35,543 nucleotides of DNA from a virus, in IMG/VR virus record IMGVR_UViG_3300029448_000163, positions 1 through 35,543 of that record; one strand, written 5' to 3'. Of the stretch, positions 4,631 to 35,208 are shown piece by piece. Each line of letters begins with the position of its first letter. The stretch's first letter is position 1. The notes below the pieces were generated by a model, which did not search any database, was not told the DNA's origin, and worked only from the letters and a program-made list of their open reading frames with translations. The translations under genes and the position numbers were made by a program.

Positions 4631-5323
4631 TTATCCCTTACCACCACTTGATAGAAGTGCAGTTTGATTTTTATCTATATTGTTTATTATTCTAGCCTGT
4701 GCATATGCACCACTCTCATTGTCCATTACAGTTATTATTGTTTCTCTTCCTATTTCATCTTGTTGAATTGGAACTAAATGAAAACTGTCTCCTGAAAAAT
4801 GATATTCTTGAGCATGTGGAATGTTTTCTGAATGTAAGTGTATACGACTTGTTCCACTTATTGAACCTCTCATAGTACCACCCCTAACTGAAAATAAATC
4901 TGGATTTGGAAGTATTAAAGTCATACCCATCCCTTGACTTGGAGTATAACCAGTTAACTTAACAGGAATTTCACCATTAGCTTCATCACCTGGATCGAAT
5001 GTTTTAACTTCACCATTAAGTGTATCCATATTTGCTAAAAGTAAAGCAGGAAGAGCTACTGTATTTTGATTTAAACTTATTAATCTATTTCTAAGATTGT
5101 GTTCCGCATGAACACTAGCTTCTATCATAGGTAAGTTTTCAATAGCCTCACCATAATAAGCAGAACCACTTGGGTGATCTGCATTCCAAAGTGAATAATC
5201 GACTCCTGTATCTGAAACAGTAAATGATGTGATATTTAAATTACCACCATCTTTTAAAATTTCTCTACCTCTTTTTGTAAGAACAGCATCTACTGTTACT
5301 GATGAATTGTCTAAAAATCCCAT
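4631..5323 (-). CDS. Virion structural protein, first gene of its unit
   Basis: 230 residues. The N-terminus MGFLDNSSVTVDAVLTKRGR, followed by a segment on the pattern NxxITSFxxSDxxxDYxLW and then HPSGSAYYGEAIENLP, is a pattern I associate with a conserved structural protein of large marine myoviruses, but I cannot assign it a T4 number. No enzyme motif is seen; the C-terminal half is beta-rich and ends in a short Gly/Ser tail. The start is secured by TAGGAG 8 bases upstream. It opens a run of three structural genes after an 83-base gap carrying a 20-base repeated element, so it is probably first on its own transcript. Role inferred from neighbours only. Confidence 0.7.
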   Translation of the reverse strand: MGFLDNSSVTVDAVLTKRGREILKDGGNLNITSFTVSDTGVDYSLWNADHPSGSAYYGEAIENLPMIEASVHAEHNLRNRLISLNQNTVALPALLLANMDTLNGEVKTFDPGDEANGEIPVKLTGYTPSQGMGMTLILPNPDLFSVRGGTMRGSISGTSRIHLHSENIPHAQEYHFSGDSFHLVPIQQDEIGRETIITVMDNESGAYAQARIINNIDKNQTALLSSGGKG

Positions 5324-5360
5324 ATTAATTTCTCCTAATTGTAAGTATTGTCATACTCTA

Positions 5361-5380
5361 ATTCATATATAAATATTAAA
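5361..5380. promoter_or_regulatory. 20-base element shared with 29784-29803, probable late promoter
   Basis: The bases ATTCATATATAAATATTAAA occur identically here and at 29784-29803, the two longest gaps between head-to-tail structural units. The copy lies 38 bases before the ATG at 5323. On the plus strand it contains TATAAATA (5368-5375), the T4 late consensus, but pointing away from the genes; in the gene direction it reads TTTAATATTTATATATGAAT. Position suggests a promoter for the minus-strand genes; orientation is uncertain. Confidence 0.45.
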
Positions 5381-5406: not shown

Positions 5407-8400
5407 CTAATCATATATAATTCTTCCTGATCCACCCAATTTACCTTTATTATTTACAACTTTAATTTCGTTTTCACCACCAGTTACTTTAACACTATAG
5501 AATGAAGCTGATGAAACATCATCACTATTTCTATGATATATATTTGAGCCAGTGTTTGTTATATTTTGTGTACCCTCATACATTTTTGCTTTAAATGGAT
5601 AACTAAATTTAGCTATGTGATTTGATGGTAATGTTATTACTCCAGTAGAAGATGTCAAAAAGTATTTTGTTTTACCTAAAGCTCTACCAGTTTGATTTCC
5701 TACAGTACCACCCATCAAAGATTCATATGTTGAATTTTTATAAACACCATCATCTAAAAGTTCTCTATTATAAATTCTTGATTGATTTGAAAAATCATCT
5801 GAATGATTAGAACCACTATCCTTAGATGAAGAATAATACTCAACATCACCTATAGCACGAAACACATATCTTGTCTCTATATGTCCAACATTAAAATAAC
5901 CAGGTATAATCGAACCCCCATCAAAAGATGAAGAAATTAAATCTTGGTCAGTACTCGATGAAAAATCATTACTAAATATTATTGGTGTATTTCCTTTTGG
6001 ACCAAAACCAGATTGAGTAAGTTCCAGTTTACCTGAAGCTGTTAATACATTATGGCCAAGCAAATTAGGATATTTAAATAAATTAAATTTATCAGGCCCA
6101 TGTCCATTTGAAGAGGTAATAGCTGCTAATAAATTTACCAACAATGAACCTGAATTTGTTCCAGGTGAACCTGTTACAAAATGTACAGATGATGAATCAG
6201 AACTAAGTGCACCATTTGTAGTAATTGATGTATCCCCAACCGCACTAGCAGTTGCAATAACATATGTTTTAGTTAGTAAATTCGAACCAGTGTCAAATGA
6301 TGTTATTGTAACTTTCATACCATGTGAACCAGAGTTATTAAAATTAAATGTATATGAACCAGTGGTTATAGATGATGTTATCTTAGAAGCCATATTTAAA
6401 AAATGTGTATCACTTCCTGTAACATGACCTTTTCCCCAAGAATCATGAATGTTTACAAAGGACTTATTAGCTCTTGAAGCATAATCGATTGAACCTGATG
6501 TTGGGAAAATAATTTTTGAACCAGTAAGTCTAATATTAGAGTTAGAGCTTCCAGTGTCAGAAATAGTAATAGAACCACTGTAAGGATATTCAACCTTAGA
6601 GCCTGAAATTGAATATGATTGTGATACCATTATTGAACCACTTTTTGGATACTCGATTGAAGAGCCAGTTATTGAGTATGATTGTGATACCATTATTGAA
6701 CCACTATATGGCATAATAATCTCTGAACCCGTTATTGAATATGATTGTGATACCATTATTGAACCACTATAAGGATAAACCACAGAACCAGTTTCTACTA
6801 TTAAATCAGTAACAGATGTTGAACCTGATTTTGGTAATTCAATAGAACCAACACTTGAGAATCCAGATTTATAATCTGTATTTTTTGTTATTTCTATACT
6901 TCCAGTAAATAAATTTGGATTTGCTTCAACTGAATGTTTTTCTCTTTCATATTTTTGTTTTTCTAATATTGTTGGTTTTATTATCACACCCATATTTGAA
7001 TTTCTGTCACTAAATGTTGAACTAGCAGGAACAACTGATTTTATAGCTTCAATAACAGAATGATTAAACATATTTTCCATAGCCCTAATAAAATCATTGG
7101 AATTATATTGTATTGGATGAGAATCAAAAAATTCTTTTCTTAAATCATCAAATTCACTATATGATGATGAATACATAGCTTGAGGATTACCATAGTATTT
7201 TTCAAAATTAAATGTATCCATATTATTTAATATATAATCATTAATTCTATCTTGTGGAGAACGATTCATTTCTAATCGTTTAGAGATTACAATTGATGGT
7301 CTATTACCATCATCCACATTTAGAGGTTTAATTGGTGATATTTCAGGACTCAAATTTCCTCTGACTTTTACTTTTGGATTTACTATTATATGTTTATCAA
7401 TTGCTTTACTCGATGCATTATCTTGTAATCCAAATTTTATAACATTAACATAATCAAAACCATAAAGTGCTGAACTACCAGAAATCAATGAACCTGATAT
7501 TTGGAACGAATAATCTTTATATGTAGTTGTTGGTGCTGAGTCAATTAAGAACATATTTTGAGTAGAACTTGATATAGAGGAACTATTATAATTTTCAGCT
7601 AATTTAAAATGATAAACTAATTCTTCTCTATGAGAACTAATTGAGTTACCAACAGAAGAAAATTTATTTAGTGTATGTTGTCTAAACCTTGAAATACTTA
7701 ATGGGGTTGACCAAGCTTTTATTTCTGCTAATGAACCACTCATAGTCTCACCAATATATAAATTAGATGAAGTTATGGTATCAAGACCTCTAAAACTACC
7801 AGTATGTGGCCAGTTTTCATTAGCTCTATAATTACTATCAACGGAACTTCCACCACTAACTGACATGGTTACATAATTGTATAATTTTATTCTATTTTTA
7901 TCTTGTAAAGAAACATGCAACCTATATTCGTTTGTACCACTACCACTAATACTTGAAGACATTCTTTGTAACATTACATTCCATAACTGTCCAGCAGCTA
8001 ATTTAGAATAAGATGTTGACATTGAAACCGCATTACTTGCTATAGCAGATGAACCTGTTTCTGAATTATTTAATCTAAATTCAAATGATGAACTAATACC
8101 ATCCGTACTTGGAACTAATCTCAAGTCCCAAAGTGTTTCAGCACCACTACCACTTGACTCTAATATTGTTTGTGTATTAGTTGTTTTTTTATGTTTGTAT
8201 ACAAACTCAATGGTGTTTGGATTAGCATCATCCATCCACCACTTTGTTCTAATAGTTCTTTCGGGTTTATTTTGTAACATATAACGATACAATTTTTGTT
8301 TTCTTTCTGTAAAGCCGATACTTCCACTTGACCTAAGTAAATCTATATCTACACCAGTTGATGTAGGTGGATTATTAGTTAAGACAATTTGGTTTTGTTC

Positions 8401-11349
8401 TTCAGTCGAACCTCCAAATTCTTGTATCTTTAATACTTCCGATGGATAACCATAGACATTTAATAAAGCTGTAACTGAGTTTTGTGTTCCTTTTGTTTTA
8501 TAAATGTATAATAAATTATTAAGTGTTTTTCTCCAAGTATCGTTTTTAATCTTATCAATAGATGTTACAGAACTTAAAGCTTGACCTAATGTTTCTGATA
8601 AATCACCAGTAAATGGATTTATAGCTTGCCAACCCATATTATCTAATAATAATGGATAAGTGCTTTCAGGAGGAGAATTGTCTTCTTTGTAACCTCTCTC
8701 ATGTAGTGTTCCTAAACTATCAATATGATTTTTTATAATATCATATTGTTCTCCTTGAAGTGATAAGAAATCTTTAAAATCTCCATAATCGGAACTTTCT
8801 TGAATATAAAGAGGTAAATTGTTTTCAAATGAATTAATATTATCTGTGTCAAATTGTTCAGATTGTGTTACTGCATTGTTAAACCAATCAACCCACGCAG
8901 TTGAACTTGTATGATAAAGTTGACTAAATGGTTGAGCTTCACTTGGGTTATTAAATGAAACTTTTACATCAGCTATATATGATGCTGATAAAAATCCATC
9001 ATCTATTATACCATCATCTCCTTCACCCGCAAATGAGCCCGAAGTATAATTTATTCTAAATAGTTCACCCGCAGGCATACAAGCACCAATTAATGGATTA
9101 CCAGATTCAGTTATGACAGTCAGAGGATAAACTCCGCTACTATCGAATATTTGGTTTGAACCTGTTTTTACACTACCACTTAATATTTCATATTCATTTG
9201 AAGCCGCTGTCCAAGTTTCAATGTTGTCTATATCATATCCAATCCCACTATCATCACCTGTTGGTATCCAATAAGATTGAGAAACTTTAAATATAAATCT
9301 TCTATATTCACTACCAGTAGGAGAGTTATTTAGTATATCAGTTGAATGAAAAGCACCTTGTGGTAATGGTTCACCTTCTATTTGTTGACCATTATGATTG
9401 TTTAGAGGACCTTTAATATCTGTTACCATACTCTTCATTAAATATGATAAATAAATTGAACCACTATAATTAAAAAATGGTTTATCGTGAACTTTATATT
9501 TGTCTGTGAATAAATCAACATAATCAGATTCAATTGCACCTTCCAAACCATCTAGCCTTTTATCAGAAAATTTATAGATAACTTCAAAACCATCGTGTTG
9601 ATTTAAAGTAATAGCTTCACCTTTATCAGTTTGTTGAGTAACAGGTGTACTATCTGCATAATTTTTACCAACACCTGGAGCCGAAGCAGTTGAATTACTC
9701 TGACCATCAAAATATAAAAACTTTTCATAAGGTGTAAATGAATTTATTTCATCATTAATTTTATCAAATAATGTTTCACGGATTTGTACAACAGAACCAG
9801 AATCTCTAAATGGATTAATAGCATTTGGTGTACCCAATGATTCCGATATTTCTCCATAATAATTTTGTATTTTTTGAACTTTTGATTTAAAGTTTTCTAA
9901 TTTTATTTTAGCAGAACCAAAATGTGTATGGTTTTCAAATTCATTATAATTAACTTTTACATTTGGATAACTATAATCACTTGAAGATATTTGATTTTGT
10001 AAAGTAATGTTTTGTATTGAAGATGACAATTCATTATAATTTTCGAAAGTATTTTCACCATCTGGATTTATCCAATTTTCTTGTGGGTCTGGATTTAAAC
10101 CATCACCAAAAAATACATCAGCTACATCAGAGAAATAATAAACTTCTTCAACTTGAGTTGTTAAAATTTCTTTTTCAATTGTAATAGTTGATAAAGCAGG
10201 TACGATACCTGATAATGGTTCATATAACTTTAATATTATTGATTGATTAAATCTTCCATCTGTTTTATCATCAAACTCATAATTCATTATTGGGATATGT
10301 TCACCATTCCCGAAATTTAAAAAATGTTTAAAAGCATAACCACCTGTACCATCATTAAACTGATTTGTCAATTCTGATATTATTGGGTCATCTTTTCCAA
10401 TGTCTTGTGATATTAATTTTACTCTGACTTCTTTTCTTGAAGTTGAAATTTCTTTTATAATAAATTCATAATGTGCGTTTGGAGATGGTTTAACTTGATT
10501 TAAAAAATCTAATTGAACTTTATAATTTCCTTCAGGTAATCCATACTGATTAAATATTTCATTTGGTTTTACATATATACTATTATCAACATCGTTATAA
10601 TAAGTTTTAAAGTCATTAAATAAATCTACATTTGTGTATTCTTCTACAACAATGTTGTCTATTAAAAAATTTATTTCTTCACCAACGGAATTATTAATCT
10701 GAAAAACAGCATTAGGATAATCACCATCAGCCACAAATATTGCTGTGTTTACTCCGTTCTCAACAGTAAATGATTGAATTAAATTTGCACCACCACAAGT
10801 TCCTTTAAGTGAAACTGTTGGATACACATCTTCTGTCATCTCCGTAGAAAATTCAAATTGTACTCTATACTTTACACCCGCTTTAAGATTGATAGGGTTT
10901 GTTGTTGAGTTTGTACAAAATATACAAAAACTTGGTGGGTTATCACCTTCAGGTATTAAACCATCACTAAATAAATTTAAAGCTTGACTAGCAGGATCTA
11001 TTTCAGCAATATCGTAGGGGTCTGTTGAGTGGTCTTCCCAATATTGTAAACCACTTCTGAAATTTCCATTAATTACTAAGTTAGTATTACCTAATACTCT
11101 TTCTTCAATTGTATCAAGGTTACCACTAAAAAATGGTGTAACATTAATATTAAATGGTAGTGTTTCTAATGTAGAATAAAATACCGCAGGAGAATTATCT
11201 TCCAATCTAACAATGTTTGTAATACTTTCAGTTGGATATACAATTAACCTAACATAATCATATGAACCAGGTAAACCAAATTCCGCATCTACTTGACTAC
11301 CTATTAACTGATAATCCGTCTCATTATAATCTTTTTCAAACTTTGGCAT
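5407..11349 (-). CDS. Giant baseplate-associated adhesin (CBM, P2 gpI-like, LamG, repeats)
   Basis: 1980 residues, a multidomain virion protein. A CBM4/9-like jelly-roll lies at about 88-240 (starts NLVINGNFRSGLQYW, ends FLIDNIVVEEY). A segment at about 934-984 (WRKTLNNLLYIYKTKGTQNS, then a turn ending YGYPSEVLKI) resembles the KTKGT helix-turn of P2 gpI-type tail proteins that anchor fibres to baseplates. A LamG/concanavalin-like domain covers about 1030-1235, ending in the typical SLAEIKAWSTPLS. Residues 1525-1587 are three 21-residue tandem repeats. The rest is Ser/Gly-rich beta structure. The ribosome site GGGAG lies inside the last codons of the upstream gene, 10 bases before the ATG, so translation is coupled. 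Likely role: receptor binding at the baseplate rim. Domain calls are by eye. Confidence 0.78.
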   Translation of the reverse strand: MPKFEKDYNETDYQLIGSQVDAEFGLPGSYDYVRLIVYPTESITNIVRLEDNSPAVFYSTLETLPFNINVTPFFSGNLDTIEERVLGNTNLVINGNFRSGLQYWEDHSTDPYDIAEIDPASQALNLFSDGLIPEGDNPPSFCIFCTNSTTNPINLKAGVKYRVQFEFSTEMTEDVYPTVSLKGTCGGANLIQSFTVENGVNTAIFVADGDYPNAVFQINNSVGEEINFLIDNIVVEEYTNVDLFNDFKTYYNDVDNSIYVKPNEIFNQYGLPEGNYKVQLDFLNQVKPSPNAHYEFIIKEISTSRKEVRVKLISQDIGKDDPIISELTNQFNDGTGGYAFKHFLNFGNGEHIPIMNYEFDDKTDGRFNQSIILKLYEPLSGIVPALSTITIEKEILTTQVEEVYYFSDVADVFFGDGLNPDPQENWINPDGENTFENYNELSSSIQNITLQNQISSSDYSYPNVKVNYNEFENHTHFGSAKIKLENFKSKVQKIQNYYGEISESLGTPNAINPFRDSGSVVQIRETLFDKINDEINSFTPYEKFLYFDGQSNSTASAPGVGKNYADSTPVTQQTDKGEAITLNQHDGFEVIYKFSDKRLDGLEGAIESDYVDLFTDKYKVHDKPFFNYSGSIYLSYLMKSMVTDIKGPLNNHNGQQIEGEPLPQGAFHSTDILNNSPTGSEYRRFIFKVSQSYWIPTGDDSGIGYDIDNIETWTAASNEYEILSGSVKTGSNQIFDSSGVYPLTVITESGNPLIGACMPAGELFRINYTSGSFAGEGDDGIIDDGFLSASYIADVKVSFNNPSEAQPFSQLYHTSSTAWVDWFNNAVTQSEQFDTDNINSFENNLPLYIQESSDYGDFKDFLSLQGEQYDIIKNHIDSLGTLHERGYKEDNSPPESTYPLLLDNMGWQAINPFTGDLSETLGQALSSVTSIDKIKNDTWRKTLNNLLYIYKTKGTQNSVTALLNVYGYPSEVLKIQEFGGSTEEQNQIVLTNNPPTSTGVDIDLLRSSGSIGFTERKQKLYRYMLQNKPERTIRTKWWMDDANPNTIEFVYKHKKTTNTQTILESSGSGAETLWDLRLVPSTDGISSSFEFRLNNSETGSSAIASNAVSMSTSYSKLAAGQLWNVMLQRMSSSISGSGTNEYRLHVSLQDKNRIKLYNYVTMSVSGGSSVDSNYRANENWPHTGSFRGLDTITSSNLYIGETMSGSLAEIKAWSTPLSISRFRQHTLNKFSSVGNSISSHREELVYHFKLAENYNSSSISSSTQNMFLIDSAPTTTYKDYSFQISGSLISGSSALYGFDYVNVIKFGLQDNASSKAIDKHIIVNPKVKVRGNLSPEISPIKPLNVDDGNRPSIVISKRLEMNRSPQDRINDYILNNMDTFNFEKYYGNPQAMYSSSYSEFDDLRKEFFDSHPIQYNSNDFIRAMENMFNHSVIEAIKSVVPASSTFSDRNSNMGVIIKPTILEKQKYEREKHSVEANPNLFTGSIEITKNTDYKSGFSSVGSIELPKSGSTSVTDLIVETGSVVYPYSGSIMVSQSYSITGSEIIMPYSGSIMVSQSYSITGSSIEYPKSGSIMVSQSYSISGSKVEYPYSGSITISDTGSSNSNIRLTGSKIIFPTSGSIDYASRANKSFVNIHDSWGKGHVTGSDTHFLNMASKITSSITTGSYTFNFNNSGSHGMKVTITSFDTGSNLLTKTYVIATASAVGDTSITTNGALSSDSSSVHFVTGSPGTNSGSLLVNLLAAITSSNGHGPDKFNLFKYPNLLGHNVLTASGKLELTQSGFGPKGNTPIIFSNDFSSSTDQDLISSSFDGGSIIPGYFNVGHIETRYVFRAIGDVEYYSSSKDSGSNHSDDFSNQSRIYNRELLDDGVYKNSTYESLMGGTVGNQTGRALGKTKYFLTSSTGVITLPSNHIAKFSYPFKAKMYEGTQNITNTGSNIYHRNSDDVSSASFYSVKVTGGENEIKVVNNKGKLGGSGRIIYD
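6589..6777 (-). repeat. Three in-frame 63-base tandem repeats
   Basis: Units at 6715-6777, 6652-6714 and 6589-6651 encode 21 residues each on the pattern (Y/M)P(Y/K)SGSIMVSQSYSI(T/S)GS plus three variable residues. A 27-base core starting at 6616, 6679 and 6742 is identical in all three. Degenerate partial units flank the array (about 6565-6588 and 6490-6520), ending in FPTSGSI. The 21-residue period fits a repeated beta-hairpin shaft. Near-identity at DNA level points to recent expansion by slippage or recombination. Confidence 0.9.
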
Positions 11350-23210: not shown

Positions 23211-24362
23211 TTAACTCCTCTTAACTATAAATTCAAAGTTATCATCAAATATCTGTTCTTGCCCATCATCTGTTTTTAATTTTAATTGTATTTTATAAAC
23301 TCTATCAGGATAAAAACCATCCAACCATTGATTGAAATATGGACTTTCAGCATCACAACTCATTGATGTGTAAGAACTAAATGGAACTATATATTCATCA
23401 GTTGCAATATCTTTAATCGCATATGAACCACTACTATCAGGTATAACTGAACCAGTTACAGTTTGAACTGATGTATTAAAAGTTTTTTGAATATATCTTT
23501 TTCTTGCACCAACTCTAAACTTAACTCTTTCACCCTGTCTATAACTTCCTCTTAAATTTTTCATATAAAGATAATTATCAACTAAACCACTCATTGTAAG
23601 TTCAGTTAAACTACCAGTAGTACTTCCTGTTGGTATTATGTGATCGTCCCATCTAACTTCAAGTTTTGGTTCAAATATCGTATGTGTATTTCTTGAAAAG
23701 AATTTTAAATGTCCTGTAGTTGTATCATCTGTTTCTTGGCTACCACTAAAACGGATTAACATTCCATAATTTTGAACTTGGTGGTCACTTGGTCTAACAC
23801 CACCCAACCACATATTTACCATATCAGTAACATCAACATTAATATCAGGAGATTCATTAGAAAAAGATTGGACAGATGAACTAACAGGAGCTCCTAGTCC
23901 AGAAATAGCAGAACCTGTTACCACTGATACTCCAGCAGAAGTCCAAGTTGTTGCACTCGAACCCATCTGATTAATACGATTTTCCCAACTACAACCATTA
24001 ACATTTTTTGGTCTATTACCAAACTTACCAGTACCCTCTGTCCAAGATTGTGATATTGGTTGAATAGCTAATTTGTAGTCCGTTGTTATTTCGGAATTAC
24101 CTTCAGCTTCATATAGTCTTAAAAAAAACTTTGGACTTGTGATTTTACCATCTGCAATTGATTGAGACATTTCTGTAAAGTCAGTCCCGCTAAATTGTAT
24201 TAATGCTCTTGATTGAAAATCAAAAGCATCATTATAAAATTCTTTTTTGACTTCAAGTATTTGGTCTCTTCCAAAGTTTTGGTCTTTGAAAGAAGTTCCA
24301 TCTATTTTACTACTACCACTTGAAATCCAAGTATCTTGTGTTGGAAAAATAAAATGATGCAT
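23211..24362 (-). CDS. DNRLRE/CBM96-like baseplate-proximal structural protein
   Basis: 383 residues. The first 245 follow the DNRLRE (CBM96) pattern: FPTQDTWISSG at the start, then NFGRDQILEVKK, RALIQFSG, FFLRLYEAEG, the SWTEGTGKFGNRP strand, INVDVTDMVNMWL, and FFSRNTHTIFEPKLEVRWDD. In bacteria this fold is found on surface and secreted carbohydrate-binding proteins. The last 120 residues form a second beta domain ending FEFIVKRS. The ATG overlaps the gp6 stop (TAATG) with GGGAGG 8 bases upstream, so it is translationally coupled to gp6. That coupling and the order gp25-gp6-this gene suggest it attaches to the baseplate wedge, perhaps in the place of T4 gp7/gp8-type parts. Sequence similarity to those is not apparent. 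Confidence 0.72.
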   Translation of the reverse strand: MHHFIFPTQDTWISSGSSKIDGTSFKDQNFGRDQILEVKKEFYNDAFDFQSRALIQFSGTDFTEMSQSIADGKITSPKFFLRLYEAEGNSEITTDYKLAIQPISQSWTEGTGKFGNRPKNVNGCSWENRINQMGSSATTWTSAGVSVVTGSAISGLGAPVSSSVQSFSNESPDINVDVTDMVNMWLGGVRPSDHQVQNYGMLIRFSGSQETDDTTTGHLKFFSRNTHTIFEPKLEVRWDDHIIPTGSTTGSLTELTMSGLVDNYLYMKNLRGSYRQGERVKFRVGARKRYIQKTFNTSVQTVTGSVIPDSSGSYAIKDIATDEYIVPFSSYTSMSCDAESPYFNQWLDGFYPDRVYKIQLKLKTDDGQEQIFDDNFEFIVKRS

Positions 24363-26650
24363 TATCTAACCCTCCCTTGTATATTCTGATTTGGATTCTT
24401 TAATTCAAAAACTGCTGGAGTCGTTGGTAATGGTGGTCTAATAATTGTACCATCGTCAGACAATGCGTTTTTGAAATCATATTTGTATCCATATCCAGTT
24501 GTACCACCATCAGCTGTTACATAAGCACCTTCACCCCCATTGTGGTTTGAGTCATACGAATATGTATAAGTTGGAGTAATTTCATTATCAGTTGTTGGAG
24601 TGTCAAAGAAATAATCTGTTTCTTGTGTAATGGTTACATGTCCAATGGAACGAACACCCTCAACGCCCATCAATTCAAATTCTAAATTACTTTTGTAAAT
24701 CGGTTGATTAAATTGCATTTTGTTTATATTAAAATAATCTTTAATTGTTTGAATACAATTTAATTTAACTTGTTGTTTGTCAGCATATTTTTCAGCTATT
24801 ACATCAAAGAATACACCAAAGTTTACAACATACCCATCATTAATTGTTATAACATCTGTCATTAATTTAAAGTTTTGTAAGTATGAACTAATATTACTTG
24901 TTAAAGTTTTTGGTAAATTATCGTATACCCCACCTGTAGCTACAGTATCTTCTATATGAGGATTACCAGTTAATTGTTTTTTATTATTATATGCAAGAAC
25001 ATAAATGTTTATTGACGCTAAATGAACCCAATTAACAGAAGCTAATTCGTTTAATGTTGGAATTTCAATATCTTGAACACCTTGCCCTTCGTACTCAGCT
25101 GTCCCTTGCAGTTGATTATGTACTTCAATCAAACCGTTCAGAACTGTAATATTAACTGCTTCTCCACTTAAAATTGCGTCTGTAATATTTCCAATTTCAG
25201 CATTGAAATCTGTAGAATAATCAGTGAATTTTTGTGAAAGTGTTTCTAAAGTTCCTTGAAATTCCGTTTCATTGAATGTCTCCTCACCATATTCAGCATT
25301 TCTAGAAACATATGCTTTAGCTATATTTCCATATTTACCTGGTATGTTTAGAACTCTAGCTTCATAATCCTCTTTTGTAACACATCTATTTTGTGTCGAG
25401 AAAAATGCTTTAGCTTTTTCTCTTATTTCTATAGAATCTTCTTCATCTTTACCACCACGAGCTGGAGTAGAGTTTGTAACTGATTCTATTTCGGCATCAG
25501 TATTGTTACCAATTGAAGTTGGACTTGGTTTCGTTGTTAACATACCAGCATTAACATTAGAAGTAATTCCCCCACCCACTCTATAAGTTACAGTTAAAGT
25601 TGTGTTGTTTGGTGTTTCACCGAGAGTTGAATACTCATTACCAAGTAATGGATTAATTGATTGATTTAAATCATTTGTTTGTCCTGGAACAACAATTCCA
25701 ACTTGCTCCATATCAATGTATCCTTGATCAACACCATCAATACCATTCTTCAATACACCATTACCAAATACAAGAGATGTAGTATTATCTGTATTTGTCT
25801 CACGGACAAATCTTTTTGGTGTATGTATGTAAGATAAAGAATATGGTACAGCTAAATCTTCTATAGTTTGGGTTTCTAAATTTTGATAAGCACTTGTTCT
25901 ACCTTCATCAGTCCAGTGTTTTGATATTGGAACTTGATCTTGAGCAAGAAAGTCAACTTCATACCAATTACTACCATTGGAATCAACACAAGAGATAATA
26001 TCAATTACATTAGTATCGGGTATTGTAATTCTTTTAAATTTTTCAGGAACTCCAATCTGAAATGTTTTTGTTTTTTGTTTACCACTTACTGCACGGACAG
26101 TTCTTTCTAACATATAAGTTTCAGCTAAACCACTATCTGCATTGGTAGTTTTAATTACCGAAGTATCAGCTGGTTCAGATCCTGTTATAGTAAAATCAAT
26201 TGGTTCTATTGTTGAAAAAATTATGTTTGAATCAGTTGATGATGGTACTTCAACACCAACATCAAAAGCTCCAGCATCAGAATAATCAACTTTAGATTTA
26301 TCATCAGCTGCATTAACTTCAGATTTAAAAGTTAAATCAACATAGGCTGGAACAATAGGTTTAACTTTGTAACCAAACATTTTAGCCATTGTAATTATGT
26401 TTCTTCTTTCTTCTGCTAATGGTAATAACATCTCACGATATTGTTGGTCGATATAAAAAGATAGTACATCACCAACATAAGCATTCATTTCCAATAACAT
26501 CATACCAGGTGATGTTTCATTAAAATCACGGTATGTATCTGGAAAATAAGATTTAGCATAATTTATTAACGATGATTTTAATGATGCAAAATCTTTATTT
26601 AAATAATTTACATTTGATTCTTTAAAATTGTTTTTACCATATGTTGGCAT
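24362..26650 (-). CDS. gp6: Baseplate wedge subunit gp6 (baseplate J-like)
   Basis: 762 residues, somewhat longer than T4 gp6 (about 660). The N-terminus has the family signature: NYLNKDFASLKSSLINYAKS (15-34), then YFPDTYRDFNETSPGMMLLE, and a helix with MNAYVGDVLSFYIDQQYREM leading to MFGYKVKP. The central part contains a VTYRVGGGITSNVNAG strand and the hinge helix ending NRCVTKEDYEARVLNIPG (about 420-437), both typical of gp6/J proteins. gp6 dimers form the inner ring that joins the wedges around the hub in contractile tails. It lies directly after gp25, as in many T4-like phages. GGAG is 7 bases before the ATG. The C-terminal 60 residues are Gly/Tyr-rich and less conserved in style. Confidence 0.92.
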   Translation of the reverse strand: MPTYGKNNFKESNVNYLNKDFASLKSSLINYAKSYFPDTYRDFNETSPGMMLLEMNAYVGDVLSFYIDQQYREMLLPLAEERRNIITMAKMFGYKVKPIVPAYVDLTFKSEVNAADDKSKVDYSDAGAFDVGVEVPSSTDSNIIFSTIEPIDFTITGSEPADTSVIKTTNADSGLAETYMLERTVRAVSGKQKTKTFQIGVPEKFKRITIPDTNVIDIISCVDSNGSNWYEVDFLAQDQVPISKHWTDEGRTSAYQNLETQTIEDLAVPYSLSYIHTPKRFVRETNTDNTTSLVFGNGVLKNGIDGVDQGYIDMEQVGIVVPGQTNDLNQSINPLLGNEYSTLGETPNNTTLTVTYRVGGGITSNVNAGMLTTKPSPTSIGNNTDAEIESVTNSTPARGGKDEEDSIEIREKAKAFFSTQNRCVTKEDYEARVLNIPGKYGNIAKAYVSRNAEYGEETFNETEFQGTLETLSQKFTDYSTDFNAEIGNITDAILSGEAVNITVLNGLIEVHNQLQGTAEYEGQGVQDIEIPTLNELASVNWVHLASINIYVLAYNNKKQLTGNPHIEDTVATGGVYDNLPKTLTSNISSYLQNFKLMTDVITINDGYVVNFGVFFDVIAEKYADKQQVKLNCIQTIKDYFNINKMQFNQPIYKSNLEFELMGVEGVRSIGHVTITQETDYFFDTPTTDNEITPTYTYSYDSNHNGGEGAYVTADGGTTGYGYKYDFKNALSDDGTIIRPPLPTTPAVFELKNPNQNIQGRVR

Positions 26651-26664
26651 AATTTATCTCCACT

Positions 26665-27153
26665 CTAATAAGAACCACCAGTTGTCAATGATTCACTTTC
26701 GTTTATTTGTCCAGAAAAATCCATAGTAACTGAATCCAATGTATTTGGATCTTGTTTGATATTGAAAATAATTTTCACTCTAATTTCATTTGAACCAACT
26801 ACAATATCATCCTCTTTTCTAAAAATTTTTATATCTCTAACCTCAACAAAGGGCAACCAAAGTTCTAATTGGTCTAATATAGCATTTTGTACACCAAGTA
26901 GGTTATCACTTGTTATATGTTCAAACAATAATCGTCTTAAATTTAAACCTAAATTGGGTTGAAAAACTCGTTCACCTCTATGAGTATTTAATAAATTTCT
27001 TATATTGTTTTTTACAGCTTCTATAGTTGTAGATGAAGATGCAAAATATCCCTCAAAACTATCACCCCTACGAATTGGTAAATCAATACCAATTTTTACA
27101 CGAGTGTCATTGTCTTCAATATAAGGTTTTCTCGATGTGTCTTTAATAGCCAT
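26665..27153 (-). CDS. gp25: Baseplate wedge subunit gp25 (GPW/gp25 family)
   Basis: 162 residues, slightly longer than T4 gp25 (132). The family core is clear: INNLLNT-type helix (about 50-57), then HRGERVFQPNLGLNLRRLLF (58-77), and a helix-strand pair with ILDQLELWLPFVEVRDIKI (about 92-110). gp25 joins gp6 and the sheath-facing part of the wedge and shares its fold with type VI secretion TssE. The ATG overlaps the stop of the gene upstream (TAATG) and a GAGGG lies 9 bases before it; gp6 follows after 14 bases. The extra N-terminal 25 residues are polar. Confident by motif and by position next to gp6. Confidence 0.92.
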   Translation of the reverse strand: MAIKDTSRKPYIEDNDTRVKIGIDLPIRRGDSFEGYFASSSTTIEAVKNNIRNLLNTHRGERVFQPNLGLNLRRLLFEHITSDNLLGVQNAILDQLELWLPFVEVRDIKIFRKEDDIVVGSNEIRVKIIFNIKQDPNTLDSVTMDFSGQINESESLTTGGSY

Positions 27154-29356: not shown

Positions 29357-29761
29357 TTAACTCTCCGTAATATTTGGATTTATTGTTTTATTTTTTATAC
29401 CTTCAAGTCTACTCTGTTCATTATTTAAATCATTTACAGTATCTTGAAGTGTCTCCATTAATTCTTCTTTTTCTGATTCTGATAGTAACATTGACTCATC
29501 ATCACCACCTTGTGATTTAGATATGATTCTTTGTAATACACCAGCTAACTTGACTAGGTGTTCATCATTTTTAACAGCGGTATCCATATATTCCTTTATA
29601 ATAGGAGCTACCATAACCACATCATCTATAGTTGTAATGAATCCGTGTATCTCTGATATTAACAAATCTATTTGAACTTTACGCTTTGTCGTGTTTTCGT
29701 AAATATCTTTTGTTAAGTCTTGAAAGGTTTTCCCCTCGAATATTTCTTTTTCATTTGACAT
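29357..29761 (-). CDS. Small helical protein opening the baseplate operon
   Basis: 134 residues, almost entirely helical with heptad-like leucine/isoleucine spacing at about 20-80 and an acidic helix at 95-125 (SESEKEELMETLQDTVNDLN). No cysteine, no membrane segment, no enzyme motif. It abuts the hub-like gene: its last codons (Thr-Glu-Ser) contain the ribosome site of the next gene. AGAGGAG lies 5 bases before its ATG. It is the first gene after the terminator at 29824-29856 and the 20-base element at 29784-29803, so it probably starts the structural transcript. A chaperone or small baseplate part would fit; the family is not recognised. Confidence 0.65.
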   Translation of the reverse strand: MSNEKEIFEGKTFQDLTKDIYENTTKRKVQIDLLISEIHGFITTIDDVVMVAPIIKEYMDTAVKNDEHLVKLAGVLQRIISKSQGGDDESMLLSESEKEELMETLQDTVNDLNNEQSRLEGIKNKTINPNITES

Positions 29762-29783
29762 ACAATCTCCTCTGAATGTATTT

Positions 29784-29803
29784 ATTCATATATAAATATT
29801 AAA
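29784..29803. promoter_or_regulatory. 20-base element shared with 5361-5380, probable late promoter
   Basis: Identical over 20 bases to the copy at 5361-5380. It lies 23 bases before the ATG at 29761 and 21 bases beyond the terminator at 29824-29856, where a new transcript should begin. It contains TATAAATA on the plus strand (29791-29798), opposite in direction to the genes it precedes. Confidence 0.5.
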
Positions 29804-29823
29804 TTTGTAAGAAATTGTCTGAA

Positions 29824-29856
29824 ATAAAAAAACCCACTTTGAATTGGTGGGTTTTA
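29824..29856 (-). terminator. Intrinsic terminator after the late sigma gene
   Basis: On the minus strand an AAACCCAC arm (29847-29854) pairs perfectly with GTGGGTTT (29830-29837) around a 9-base loop, and the 3' arm runs into a run of seven T. It lies 20 bases beyond the sigma factor stop and separates that operon from the baseplate operon. A shorter T run on the plus side could make it weakly bidirectional. Confidence 0.85.
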
Positions 29857-29876
29857 ATATATACTATTTTAACATG

Positions 29877-30617
29877 TTAAAAAAATGAACCAGATGAATC
29901 AATCATAATAGTCCCATTTTTATGATATTTATTAACAAGTTTTTTATAATGTTTTTTTAATACATTTACAACTGATGTTATGTGAGCTGTTTCTACATCC
30001 GTCATTTCTCTAATTAATATGTATAGAGCTTTTTTATTAAAGTTTTCTATCTCTTCTCGTGCTTTTATTAAATCAACGATAGCATATCCTATTTTTAAAT
30101 CCCTATCTTTTTTAAAAATAGTGTTTAGATTTTTATCAAAATATTCAACGATTTCGGTAGTAAAAGAACCATAATCATAATCCATATCTTTAAGGTTTTT
30201 TTCTCTATCTAATACATCCATACCATCGTGACTTTTTAATTTTTTATAATTGTTATTGTTATGTAAAATCAAATAGTTTTTAGCCACTACTGAAAAGTAA
30301 CTAAATGCTTTTGAACCTTTTGTATGGTCATATTTGTGAATATTCATTACCATAAATGCCACCACTTCGTGTTTGACATCTTCAAAAGGCATATCAAAAT
30401 AAGTAAACTTAAATGTATTAATTATATTTTCAGCTAATTTATCAAAAGCTGCGTGTATTCTTGTTCCATAAATTAAATTTCTTTCATTGTCATTAGTTGA
30501 TGAGTTATATTCAACAACTGCGTTTTGAACCTCTTGTCCAAAATAAACTTTTCGTTTTTTCTTTTTAACTATTTTTTTAATCTCTGCTTTTACATCATTG
30601 ACTTTCTTTTTTGGCAT
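29877..30617 (-). CDS. gp55: Late transcription sigma factor (T4 gp55-like)
   Basis: 246 residues from ATG 30617. I chose this start because GAGGAG lies 7 bases before it and the protein then begins MPKKKVNDVK; an in-frame ATG 33 bases further upstream lacks such a site. A Lys-rich N-terminus precedes the sigma region-2 core: two helices (IHAAFDKLAENIINTF and EDVKHEVVAFMVMNIHKYD), followed by HTKGSKAFSYFSVVAKNYL, matching the D-x-x-(K/R)-G-x-x-F-x-x-Y/W core that binds RNA polymerase and melts the -10 region. gp55-type factors direct host polymerase to late promoters. Region 4 is absent, as in gp55. The gene overlaps its upstream neighbour by 23 bases and is followed by a terminator. It may act on the shared 20-base element downstream. 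Confidence 0.82.
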   Translation of the reverse strand: MPKKKVNDVKAEIKKIVKKKKRKVYFGQEVQNAVVEYNSSTNDNERNLIYGTRIHAAFDKLAENIINTFKFTYFDMPFEDVKHEVVAFMVMNIHKYDHTKGSKAFSYFSVVAKNYLILHNNNNYKKLKSHDGMDVLDREKNLKDMDYDYGSFTTEIVEYFDKNLNTIFKKDRDLKIGYAIVDLIKAREEIENFNKKALYILIREMTDVETAHITSVVNVLKKHYKKLVNKYHKNGTIMIDSSGSFF

Positions 30618-32963: not shown

Positions 32964-35208
32964 TATTAAGATAAACCTCCATCATATCTTTCCACATATC
33001 AAGTGTTTGTATACTCTTTTTCCATCCCAGTTTTTCTTTTACATTGGATGTAGTATTACTTTTAGTTTTCATCATATCTATTAAAGTATTACAAGCATCA
33101 ATGAATGTACCATCTGTTTCAGTATCTATAATATTTTTTTGTGGGTTATCAGAAATAAATTGATTAAATTCAGGACTTAGAGGAAACCAATATTTTAATT
33201 CCTTGTGTGGGTTATCACTACTTCTGAAATGTAAATGATGACTATGAAAATTATCTTTAGTAACAGGTTTACAACTATGTGGACATATATATAGATAATC
33301 ATCCGTATGTTCTAATACTTCTTCAAAGTATGTTTCAGCTTCAGACCTAGACCACAATGATTCATCCATAGATTGTATATATTCAGAAATAATAGTTTGA
33401 AAGTTTGATACTCCATAATTCTTAAATAAAAAGTTTCCTCTATTTTTTGTTCCTCGTTTTTGGCCAATCTTACTGACGTGACCATTTATTTTATCCTCTT
33501 GGGCTTTCACAATATCATCAAATGTATTTATCATACAATCTAATTTACCAATAATCCAATCTTCAAGTTTAAACTTTTTTAAATAACTGTGTAAAGATAA
33601 TGTTGAGAACACTACAAATTGGTCATGATATTTTACTTTGTGTAATTCTAAACAATCACTGTAGTATTTAAAATCTTTAAGTTCTTTTAACACATCTACA
33701 GGTGTTACATCTTCATTAGGATATTTATTTTTAATTTTTTTAATTTCATCAGTATGTGGTTTTTTTAATTTATCAAGACACTTAGCCCACCTAATTACTC
33801 GATTTAAAAAATCATCAGAAGTTGTCAATAGAGCTATCTTTAAAATATTTTCTACAAACTCAACAAAGATTTTTTTATCATCTATAACTAAATTAGAAAA
33901 TCTCTCAATCCAAAAGTCATACATTTTAGGTTTAATACCATATGTTGTCCAAGCACTATTGTCAAATGGTTCTCCACCCCACAATTCCGAATCCGTTGGA
34001 TTACACTTTACATCAAACTTATATATTAGTTTTTGTTCACCATCATCATTAGCAATCATTTCTCTCTTTACCCTTGACAATATCATTTGATAAACATAAA
34101 TTAAATATTGATCAAAATTCATTTGATTTTGTTCATCGGAAGAAGTATCATATGAAAACTTTTTGGTAATACCTGATGGGAAATCAACTTCTTTTCTATT
34201 AAAAAATGGAATGTGTGGAACTACATCTGATAAATAACCAACCAACGAATCAGATATAGTTAACTTACTACCAAATAATAATTCAGAAAACTCTGTTTCT
34301 GATAAGTCAGACTTTACTCTTTGTGTTGTTGAGTGACTTGAAACATGTTCATTTAGTTTCCTAAATAAAAGAGAAGCAGTTTTGGAATCACATAAATGAA
34401 GATTACCATAAACTATCATTTTTTCTTTATCTTCAAAAACACTTTTCATTTCAGGTTGGTGATTTATTAATTGTTCAAAGTTAAAAGATTCCCCATCAAA
34501 TGTGTTAACAAATTGGTCAAATGATTTCCAAACATCGGGCCATAAATTTTTATCAGTAAACAATGTCTCTTTTTCTTGAAGTGCTTTTTTGAGAGATTGT
34601 ACAGAAAATGATTTTCCAAAAAACATAAAATCTACAACTAACAATAATCTATGTTGACCATCATAAACATATATTTTTTGTTTATAATCTTTATCAGTTT
34701 TTACTACAAAGGTAACTTCTGGTTTTTTAGAACCTTTTAATATATCAAGTAATTGTTCTAATTGATATACCTCAGTTTGTCTTTCTGCTTTAGTTTGTTC
34801 TTTAGGCCTGACAAAGTAAAAATTATCGTCTTTTTCAGAAACTACAAAATTAGGATTATCAAAGTTTTTAAAACAATCTTTTATTGAACTATCTGTTAAA
34901 TCGATATGCATTCTATACTCACCAGCCTCATTGTTACAAGCGAATTGTTTCAATGAATTTCTAATTCTAGCGTTTAATTCTTTTCTTGATAATTTTTTAA
35001 ATTCAATAAGTTCATTTGATTTAAAAGTTTCTTTTATCATAATCTTTTCTATTTCTCTTCTTTGTTTATGATTTAAACGGGGAACTTGTTTTACTTCCAT
35101 AGCCCCATTATCATCTATAAATTTTTCTACATTATTATTCATTATTACTCCATTATTTGTTTTAGCATTTAATATTTTATTTTTATATCTATCTGATGTT
35201 TTTATCAT
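32956..35208 (-). CDS. DUF262 (DGQHR) plus HNH-like nuclease, GmrSD-type architecture
   Basis: 750 residues. The DUF262 signature D183-G-Q-H-R187 lies in VYDGQHRLLLVVDFM, and the second DUF262 hallmark, LLFRKLNEHVSSHSTTQRVK (about 277-296), matches the F-x-x-(I/L)-N-x-x-x-x-(L/S) motif. Near the C-terminus a C642-x3-C646 pair, HSHHLHFR (655-662) and later N residues in FPLSPEFNQFISDN resemble a zinc-type HNH site preceded by the usual W-S-x-x-E-A-E helix. DUF262 plus a C-terminal HNH is the layout of GmrSD-type modification-dependent restriction enzymes, where the DGQ(Q/H)R domain binds nucleotide. The first ATG (35208) has AAGGAG 9 bases upstream. A second ATG at 35142 (728 residues) has GGAG 5 bases upstream and fits the promoter position better. 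The nuclease call is an inference. Confidence 0.7.
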   Translation of the reverse strand: MIKTSDRYKNKILNAKTNNGVIMNNNVEKFIDDNGAMEVKQVPRLNHKQRREIEKIMIKETFKSNELIEFKKLSRKELNARIRNSLKQFACNNEAGEYRMHIDLTDSSIKDCFKNFDNPNFVVSEKDDNFYFVRPKEQTKAERQTEVYQLEQLLDILKGSKKPEVTFVVKTDKDYKQKIYVYDGQHRLLLVVDFMFFGKSFSVQSLKKALQEKETLFTDKNLWPDVWKSFDQFVNTFDGESFNFEQLINHQPEMKSVFEDKEKMIVYGNLHLCDSKTASLLFRKLNEHVSSHSTTQRVKSDLSETEFSELLFGSKLTISDSLVGYLSDVVPHIPFFNRKEVDFPSGITKKFSYDTSSDEQNQMNFDQYLIYVYQMILSRVKREMIANDDGEQKLIYKFDVKCNPTDSELWGGEPFDNSAWTTYGIKPKMYDFWIERFSNLVIDDKKIFVEFVENILKIALLTTSDDFLNRVIRWAKCLDKLKKPHTDEIKKIKNKYPNEDVTPVDVLKELKDFKYYSDCLELHKVKYHDQFVVFSTLSLHSYLKKFKLEDWIIGKLDCMINTFDDIVKAQEDKINGHVSKIGQKRGTKNRGNFLFKNYGVSNFQTIISEYIQSMDESLWSRSEAETYFEEVLEHTDDYLYICPHSCKPVTKDNFHSHHLHFRSSDNPHKELKYWFPLSPEFNQFISDNPQKNIIDTETDGTFIDACNTLIDMMKTKSNTTSNVKEKLGWKKSIQTLDMWKDMMEVYLNNE

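Follow-up and report, generated by a model that had tools for sequence, protein, structure and literature searches.

A late promoter variant with the core TATTTATA probably serves a large group of T4-like phages that encode a gp55-like sigma factor

Introduction

Two identical 20-base elements in a 35.5-kb fragment of a virus record (35,543 nucleotides, hereafter the window) appear to be late promoters that read in the direction of the genes behind them. Their core would be TATTTATA, recognised by the phage's own gp55-like sigma factor, and we put the probability of this reading at nearly 0.9. The 20-mer is very probably the late-gene start signal in a large group of T4-like phages. The evidence consists of the sequence identity of the two copies, their conservation, a fixed orientation before genes (late genes above all), association with a sigma clade, a gp55 profile and a predicted sigma-2 fold. 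The transcription start, recognition by the gp55-like sigma and the late timing are what we infer from it.

The late promoter of phage T4 is a box at -13 to -6 of the transcription start, with no conserved -35 element. As in that promoter, TATTTATA would lie about one turn of the helix ahead of the transcription start; its distance from the start codon is typically 20-55 bases. The sigma factor of the window, bound to the core RNA polymerase of the host, would recognise it. When both are read in one direction, TATTTATA and the T4 word TATAAATA agree at six of eight bases, and the only difference is that the central AA has become TT. Because TAT..ATA is self-complementary, this change is the same as reversing the word, and TATTTATA therefore looks like a reversed T4 box. 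A first-pass annotation of the window had recorded TATAAATA within both copies on the strand opposite to the genes and had offered two explanations. Either this phage has a gp55 that recognises another motif, read along the genes, or the boxes are promoters of antisense transcripts. The choice between them is settled by the relatives of the phage; the window alone decides neither.

The element and its surroundings in the window

The main genes of the window all lie on the minus strand. Besides the gp6-like and gp25-like baseplate genes (Table 1) they include a primase gene and a RuvC-like gene. A check of both copies agreed with the earlier description of an identical 20-mer ahead of the genes at 5323 and 29761. 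It reads ATTCATATATAAATATTAAA on the plus strand and TTTAATATTTATATATGAAT on the gene strand, and TATAAATA is indeed present on the plus strand in both. The copies begin 38 and 23 bases past the start codons at 5323 and 29761, so that 37 and 22 bases intervene. From the geometry of T4, transcription would start near 5362 for copy 1 and near 29785 for copy 2. The window holds only two families of direct repeats of at least 20 nt, the 20-mer among them, and repeated 20-mers occurred in none of 30 dinucleotide shuffles. By itself the word TATAAATA is not overrepresented, with 13 matches in the window where 9.4 are expected. Its minus-strand matches, in the gene direction, are at 1673, 28473, 29197 and 32917. 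All four lie within open reading frames (ORFs), and therefore no ordinary T4 late promoter is visible in the window.

On the gene strand, the end of the sigma gene is followed by an intrinsic terminator, the element, a ribosome-binding site (RBS) and the gene at 29761. The terminator folds at -12.9 kcal/mol (z -2.78); with a loop of 9 it escaped a simple scan that allowed loops of up to 8.

Table 1. Coordinates of the element, neighbouring signals and relevant genes (window positions unless another sequence is named)
Feature	Coordinates	Strand	Basis
Copy 1, putative late promoter of the gene at 5323	5361..5380	-	identical 20-mer; exact TATTTATATATG ahead of the gene's homologs in relatives
Copy 1, candidate core box TATTTATA (TATAAATA on +)	5368..5375	-	
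Copy 2, putative late promoter of the baseplate operon that begins with the gene at 29761	29784..29803	-	identical 20-mer; relatives
Copy 2, candidate core box TATTTATA (TATAAATA on +)	29791..29798	-	8-mer enrichment in relatives
RBS AGGAGA of the gene at 5323	5331..5336	-	read in sequence
RBS AGAGGAGA of the gene at 29761	29766..29773	-	read in sequence
Intrinsic terminator between sigma gene and copy 2	29826..29855	-	9-pair stem, then U run
Gene of copy 1, function not assigned, conserved in immuto and Mel-JY01	4631..5323	-	
Gene of copy 2, function not assigned, heads operon with gp25-like and gp6-like genes	29357..29761	-	
Baseplate wedge gp6-like protein, query for finding relatives	24362..26650	-	PHROGs 219, 10646, 6
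Baseplate wedge gp25-like protein	26665..27153	-	PHROGs 261, 43
Predicted gp55-like late sigma factor, 246 aa (P0001)	29877..30617	-	gp55 profile comparison; sigma-2 fold
Sigma homologs in immuto, Mel-JY01, LR756508	L101:15815-16513, L100:15265-16035, L102:19983-20693 (L101 = immuto)		

Two sites resemble sigma-70 promoters, in scans where chance matches of this kind are common. TTGACT/TATATT (35254-35225, minus strand) lies ahead of the gene at 35208, and TTGATT/TATATT (1719-1691, minus strand) ahead of the gene at 1683. Both are probably host-type promoters, and such promoters look like a class separate from the TATTTATA element. An A-run and AAAGCTTGA are common to the two sites, before the -35-like hexamer. 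AAAGCTTG occurs in 8 upstream regions of the marine group of relatives and in none reversed. The 1980-aa gene at 5407-11349 contains three copies of an 83-nt repeat, 63 nt apart, at 6569-6777, as in repetitive fibre or adhesin proteins.

Conservation in relatives

Relatives were found with the gp6-like protein, and 80 of 289 loci were kept. The product of the gene at 29761 has 49 matches in these loci and the window. We used the 34 homologs that have enough upstream sequence and left out 15 that are cut off. Exact TATTTATATATG stands ahead of the homolog in all 34 relatives, 25 of them distinct. The full records from which 40 of the 80 loci come have 52 exact TATTTATATATGAA, every one oriented like the gp6 gene. 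One relative of 69 kb carries five TATTTATATATGAA, each ahead of an operon head. An origin of the 20-mer as a repeat or mobile element was rejected, since there are two copies only, both intergenic, and homologous sites are kept in relatives. Many relatives also have TTTATATATG within the gene that follows gp6, where it seems to belong to a conserved coding sequence; it was not counted as a promoter.

Copy 2 is adjoined upstream by the 17-base stretch CAATTTCTTACAAATTT (29804-29820, minus strand), in which 14 of 17 columns are invariant in 25 distinct relatives. As regards a -35 element, no upstream block is common to the sigma clusters described below, but the 17-base block is kept at the promoter of the 29761 gene.

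Enrichment across the sigma clade

Genes were delimited with a simple ORF caller, and all 8-mers ahead of them on the gene strand were counted and compared with the background of the genome. TATTTATA is among the top four 8-mers in the marine group (26 forward and 4 reverse, 1.1 expected), in Flavobacterium phage immuto (20 and 7, 0.8 expected) and in Microcystis phage Mel-JY01 (9 and 2, 0.9 expected). As a control, the same code returned TATAAATA forward in T4 (16 forward and 7 reverse, 0.6 expected), and likewise in S-RIM8 (6/2), RB43 (5/0) and OC (6/1). Neither word is clear in the upstream 8-mer counts of Cr30, Moby and phiN3. The 484-kb phage LR756508.1, which has a relative of the sigma factor, gave only 3 forward TATTTATA against 0.3 (40-200 kb), and its late box may be different or placed elsewhere.

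Two scans with the sigma family each found 552 relatives in 599 stretches, and 80 were kept. Pooled with the earlier loci, and with the window, immuto, Mel-JY01 and part of LR756508, they make up 210 sequences, of which 162 carry the sigma factor. In 158 it has at least 150 aa, and there are 120 distinct cores in 7 clusters. Among 664 upstream regions of this sigma clade, 155 have TATTTATA forward and 10 have it reversed. By downstream gene family, it is forward only in 44 and reverse only in 5 (p = 8e-9). With one region per cluster and family, it is forward in 48 of 407 regions, against 6.3 expected (300 shuffles: SD 2.6, maximum 14), while the count of gene-direction TATAAATA is what chance would give (9 of 407, 8.6 expected).

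Late genes of a complete phage

The complete phage immuto has TATTTATA ahead of its terminase, portal, tail sheath, tail completion, baseplate hub and tape-measure genes. The box precedes 13 of 50 genes in a late list that we drew from the annotation, compared with 9 of 175 other ORFs (p = 8e-5). The other 37 genes of the list have no box within 60 bases, and operons may explain many of them. The major capsid gene has none in the preceding 90 bases. An early-type motif, TATATTTAGG, is found at 0 of the 50 late-list genes and 13 of the 175 other ORFs, and is probably of the host sigma type.

Sense or antisense reading

The antisense explanation holds that the elements are true T4 late boxes on the opposite strand, which drive transcripts into the 1980-aa gene and the sigma gene. 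It draws on the fact that the plus-strand 8-mer is exactly TATAAATA. Strand counts alone are blind to the difference because TATAAATA and TATTTATA are complements, and a test of position backs the sense reading only modestly. For gaps of 60-300 bases, in a range of 18-45 bases before the start codon that was picked after the medians were seen, there is modest clustering of ATATTTATA (17 of 30 versus 9.7, p = 0.003) and of TATTTATA (18 of 38 versus 12.2, p = 0.03). Clustering before start codons is absent in gaps of at least 80 bases. A sense/antisense test on minus-strand genes had 21 regions with 3 TATAAATA and 1 TATTTATA, too few for use. Against antisense promoters, the element is associated with the gene behind it and that gene's RBS, copy 2 lies between a terminator and an RBS, and virion genes of immuto have the element ahead of them. 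Antisense boxes would also leave the clade without a sense late box, as gene-direction TATAAATA is at chance, whereas T4, S-RIM8, RB43 and OC all have their late box in the gene direction. We consider antisense promoters very improbable.

Four points favour the sense reading: the association of the element with the gene behind it, the terminator, the lack of a gene-direction T4 box and the T4 controls. The first of the two original explanations, a different motif read by gp55 in the gene direction, is strongly supported by the recurrence of the element, in one orientation, ahead of many unrelated genes and above all of late ones, throughout the clade of the gp55-like sigma factor.

Other explanations of the box

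The working box could instead be the neighbouring TATGAATA or TATGAATT, one or two bases off that of T4, with TATTTATA as flanking A+T sequence. TATGAATA directly follows TATTTATA in copy 2 and in some sites of the marine group, where TATnnATA has GA 8 times and TT 32 times. But copy 1 carries TATGAATT rather than TATGAATA, and outside the marine group TATTTATA recurs without the neighbour (GA once and TT 49 times, with one region per group), which makes this explanation extremely unlikely. It is just as hard to credit that the element is a site of a host sigma factor or a phage activator: an activator might bind the nearly unchanged 17 bases ahead of copy 2, but this stretch is absent from the other promoters of the 69-kb relative, the box tracks the sigma clade across marine contigs and phages listed with Flavobacterium and Microcystis hosts, and the host-type promoters differ from it (TATATTTAGG in immuto, TTGACT/TATATT in the window).

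The gp55-like sigma factor

The proposed reader of TATTTATA, P0001, is by profile and structural model a distant gp55-like sigma factor. Its relatives share 40% (immuto), 44% (Mel-JY01) and 43% (LR756508) with it. They are hypothetical proteins in immuto and Mel-JY01, and the stretch of LR756508 carries no annotation. Comparison by hhalign with ten gp55-family proteins gave 96.9% for a profile of 10 sigma members and 95.8% for 53 members. As controls, 11 other families of the window, three of them with only two members, gave at most 2.9%. The family phrog_234 matches 7 of 53 sigma members at E 0.1 (best 2e-4), and in immuto the sigma homolog is the only match of the genome (E 0.008). At 0.01 there is no phrog_234 match in Mel-JY01, LR756508, G002 or G041. 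A search of P0001 against PDB sequences gave nothing relevant.

A structure predicted from 53 sequences has a pLDDT of 80.9; an earlier one, built from 19 close relatives, reached 48.9 and was set aside as poor. The helix predicted to correspond to region 2.3-2.4 spans residues of about 104-128 in P0001. Residues 21-124 of the predicted structure superpose on sigma-S domain 2 (2.8 A over 96 residues, Z 10.1) and on the Pribnow-box domain of sigma-C (2.2 A over 84, Z 8.5). Foldseek alone found no match for the model at E 0.001. Helical bundles can reach such Z values by arrangement alone, and therefore the sequence profile weighs more than the fold.

P0001 is about 60 residues longer than T4 gp55 (246 versus 185 aa), and four helices are predicted at 139-234, past the sigma-2 part. 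A sigma-4-like C-terminal domain is a lead. Pfam searches with the C-terminal 100 residues of 10 members gave weak, mixed matches, none over the cut-off (Trp-repressor in 3 of 10). The last residues of the sigma factor are GSFF or GSIF in the two largest clusters only. Members of the gp55 family have a C-terminal motif that binds the sliding clamp, together with a gp45-type clamp in the genome. The profiles PF02916, PF09116 and PF00712 gave nothing over the cut-off in the complete immuto and Mel-JY01 or in LR756508 and G041, while T4 and S-RIM8 match PF09116. S-RIM8 itself fails PF02916; diverged clamps can therefore be missed, and the absence of a clamp is weak evidence. The DNA polymerase of immuto is of family A, with no family B match, and those of Mel-JY01 and G041 are of family B. 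One speculative and rather unlikely arrangement is that the sigma of this clade has, beyond its gp55-type sigma-2 part, an added helical domain at the C terminus that may take over the sigma-4-like role of gp33, and that this sigma reads TATTTATA independently of a T4-type clamp. Expression of late genes would then no longer be coupled to the replication clamp.

Implications

With TATTTATA, a large group of marine, Flavobacterium and Microcystis phages would gain late promoters, and their unannotated sigma factor a name. Within this clade, a search with the T4 word TATAAATA would miss the late promoters or place them on the opposite strand. Natural pairs of sigma factor and box that are two bases apart would make the specificity determinants of gp55 directly testable by domain swaps. 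In a passage of a review of T4 late transcription, reading of the late promoter by gp55 segment 2.4 is called speculative (PMC2988020). A search of the literature, mostly from outside subscription journals, brought up no description of TATTTATA as a phage late promoter.

Comparison with known systems

The system resembles that of T4 in having one short A+T box before late genes and a gp55-related sigma factor in the genome. It departs from the strict T4 consensus in that the central AA of TATAAATA is TT in TATTTATA. The sigma factor also differs, with its extra C-terminal helices and greater length, and no T4-type clamp was detected in immuto and Mel-JY01. The cyanophage S-RIM8 (Kyanoviridae) likewise has its late box in the gene direction, as found with the same code, but keeps TATAAATA and has a T4-type clamp C-domain. 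Of 131 upstream regions in Sphingomonas phage PAU, 37 contain TATACATA on the gene strand and 1 has it reversed; this motif is possibly another lineage-specific TATnnATA box. PAU thus shares the TATnnATA word and its gene direction; its central pair is AC, it is a candidate motif only, and the PAU sigma factor is very distant. According to the review cited above, KVP40, 44RR and S-PM2 have related late consensus boxes, and the box of Aeromonas phage Aeh1 is changed to a/gC at -13/-12 (PMC2988020). Aeh1 is thus a precedent for lineage-specific change of the T4 late box, but here it is the two central positions that are changed. As a late promoter, the TATTTATA box would be a lineage-wide variant of a kind already known.
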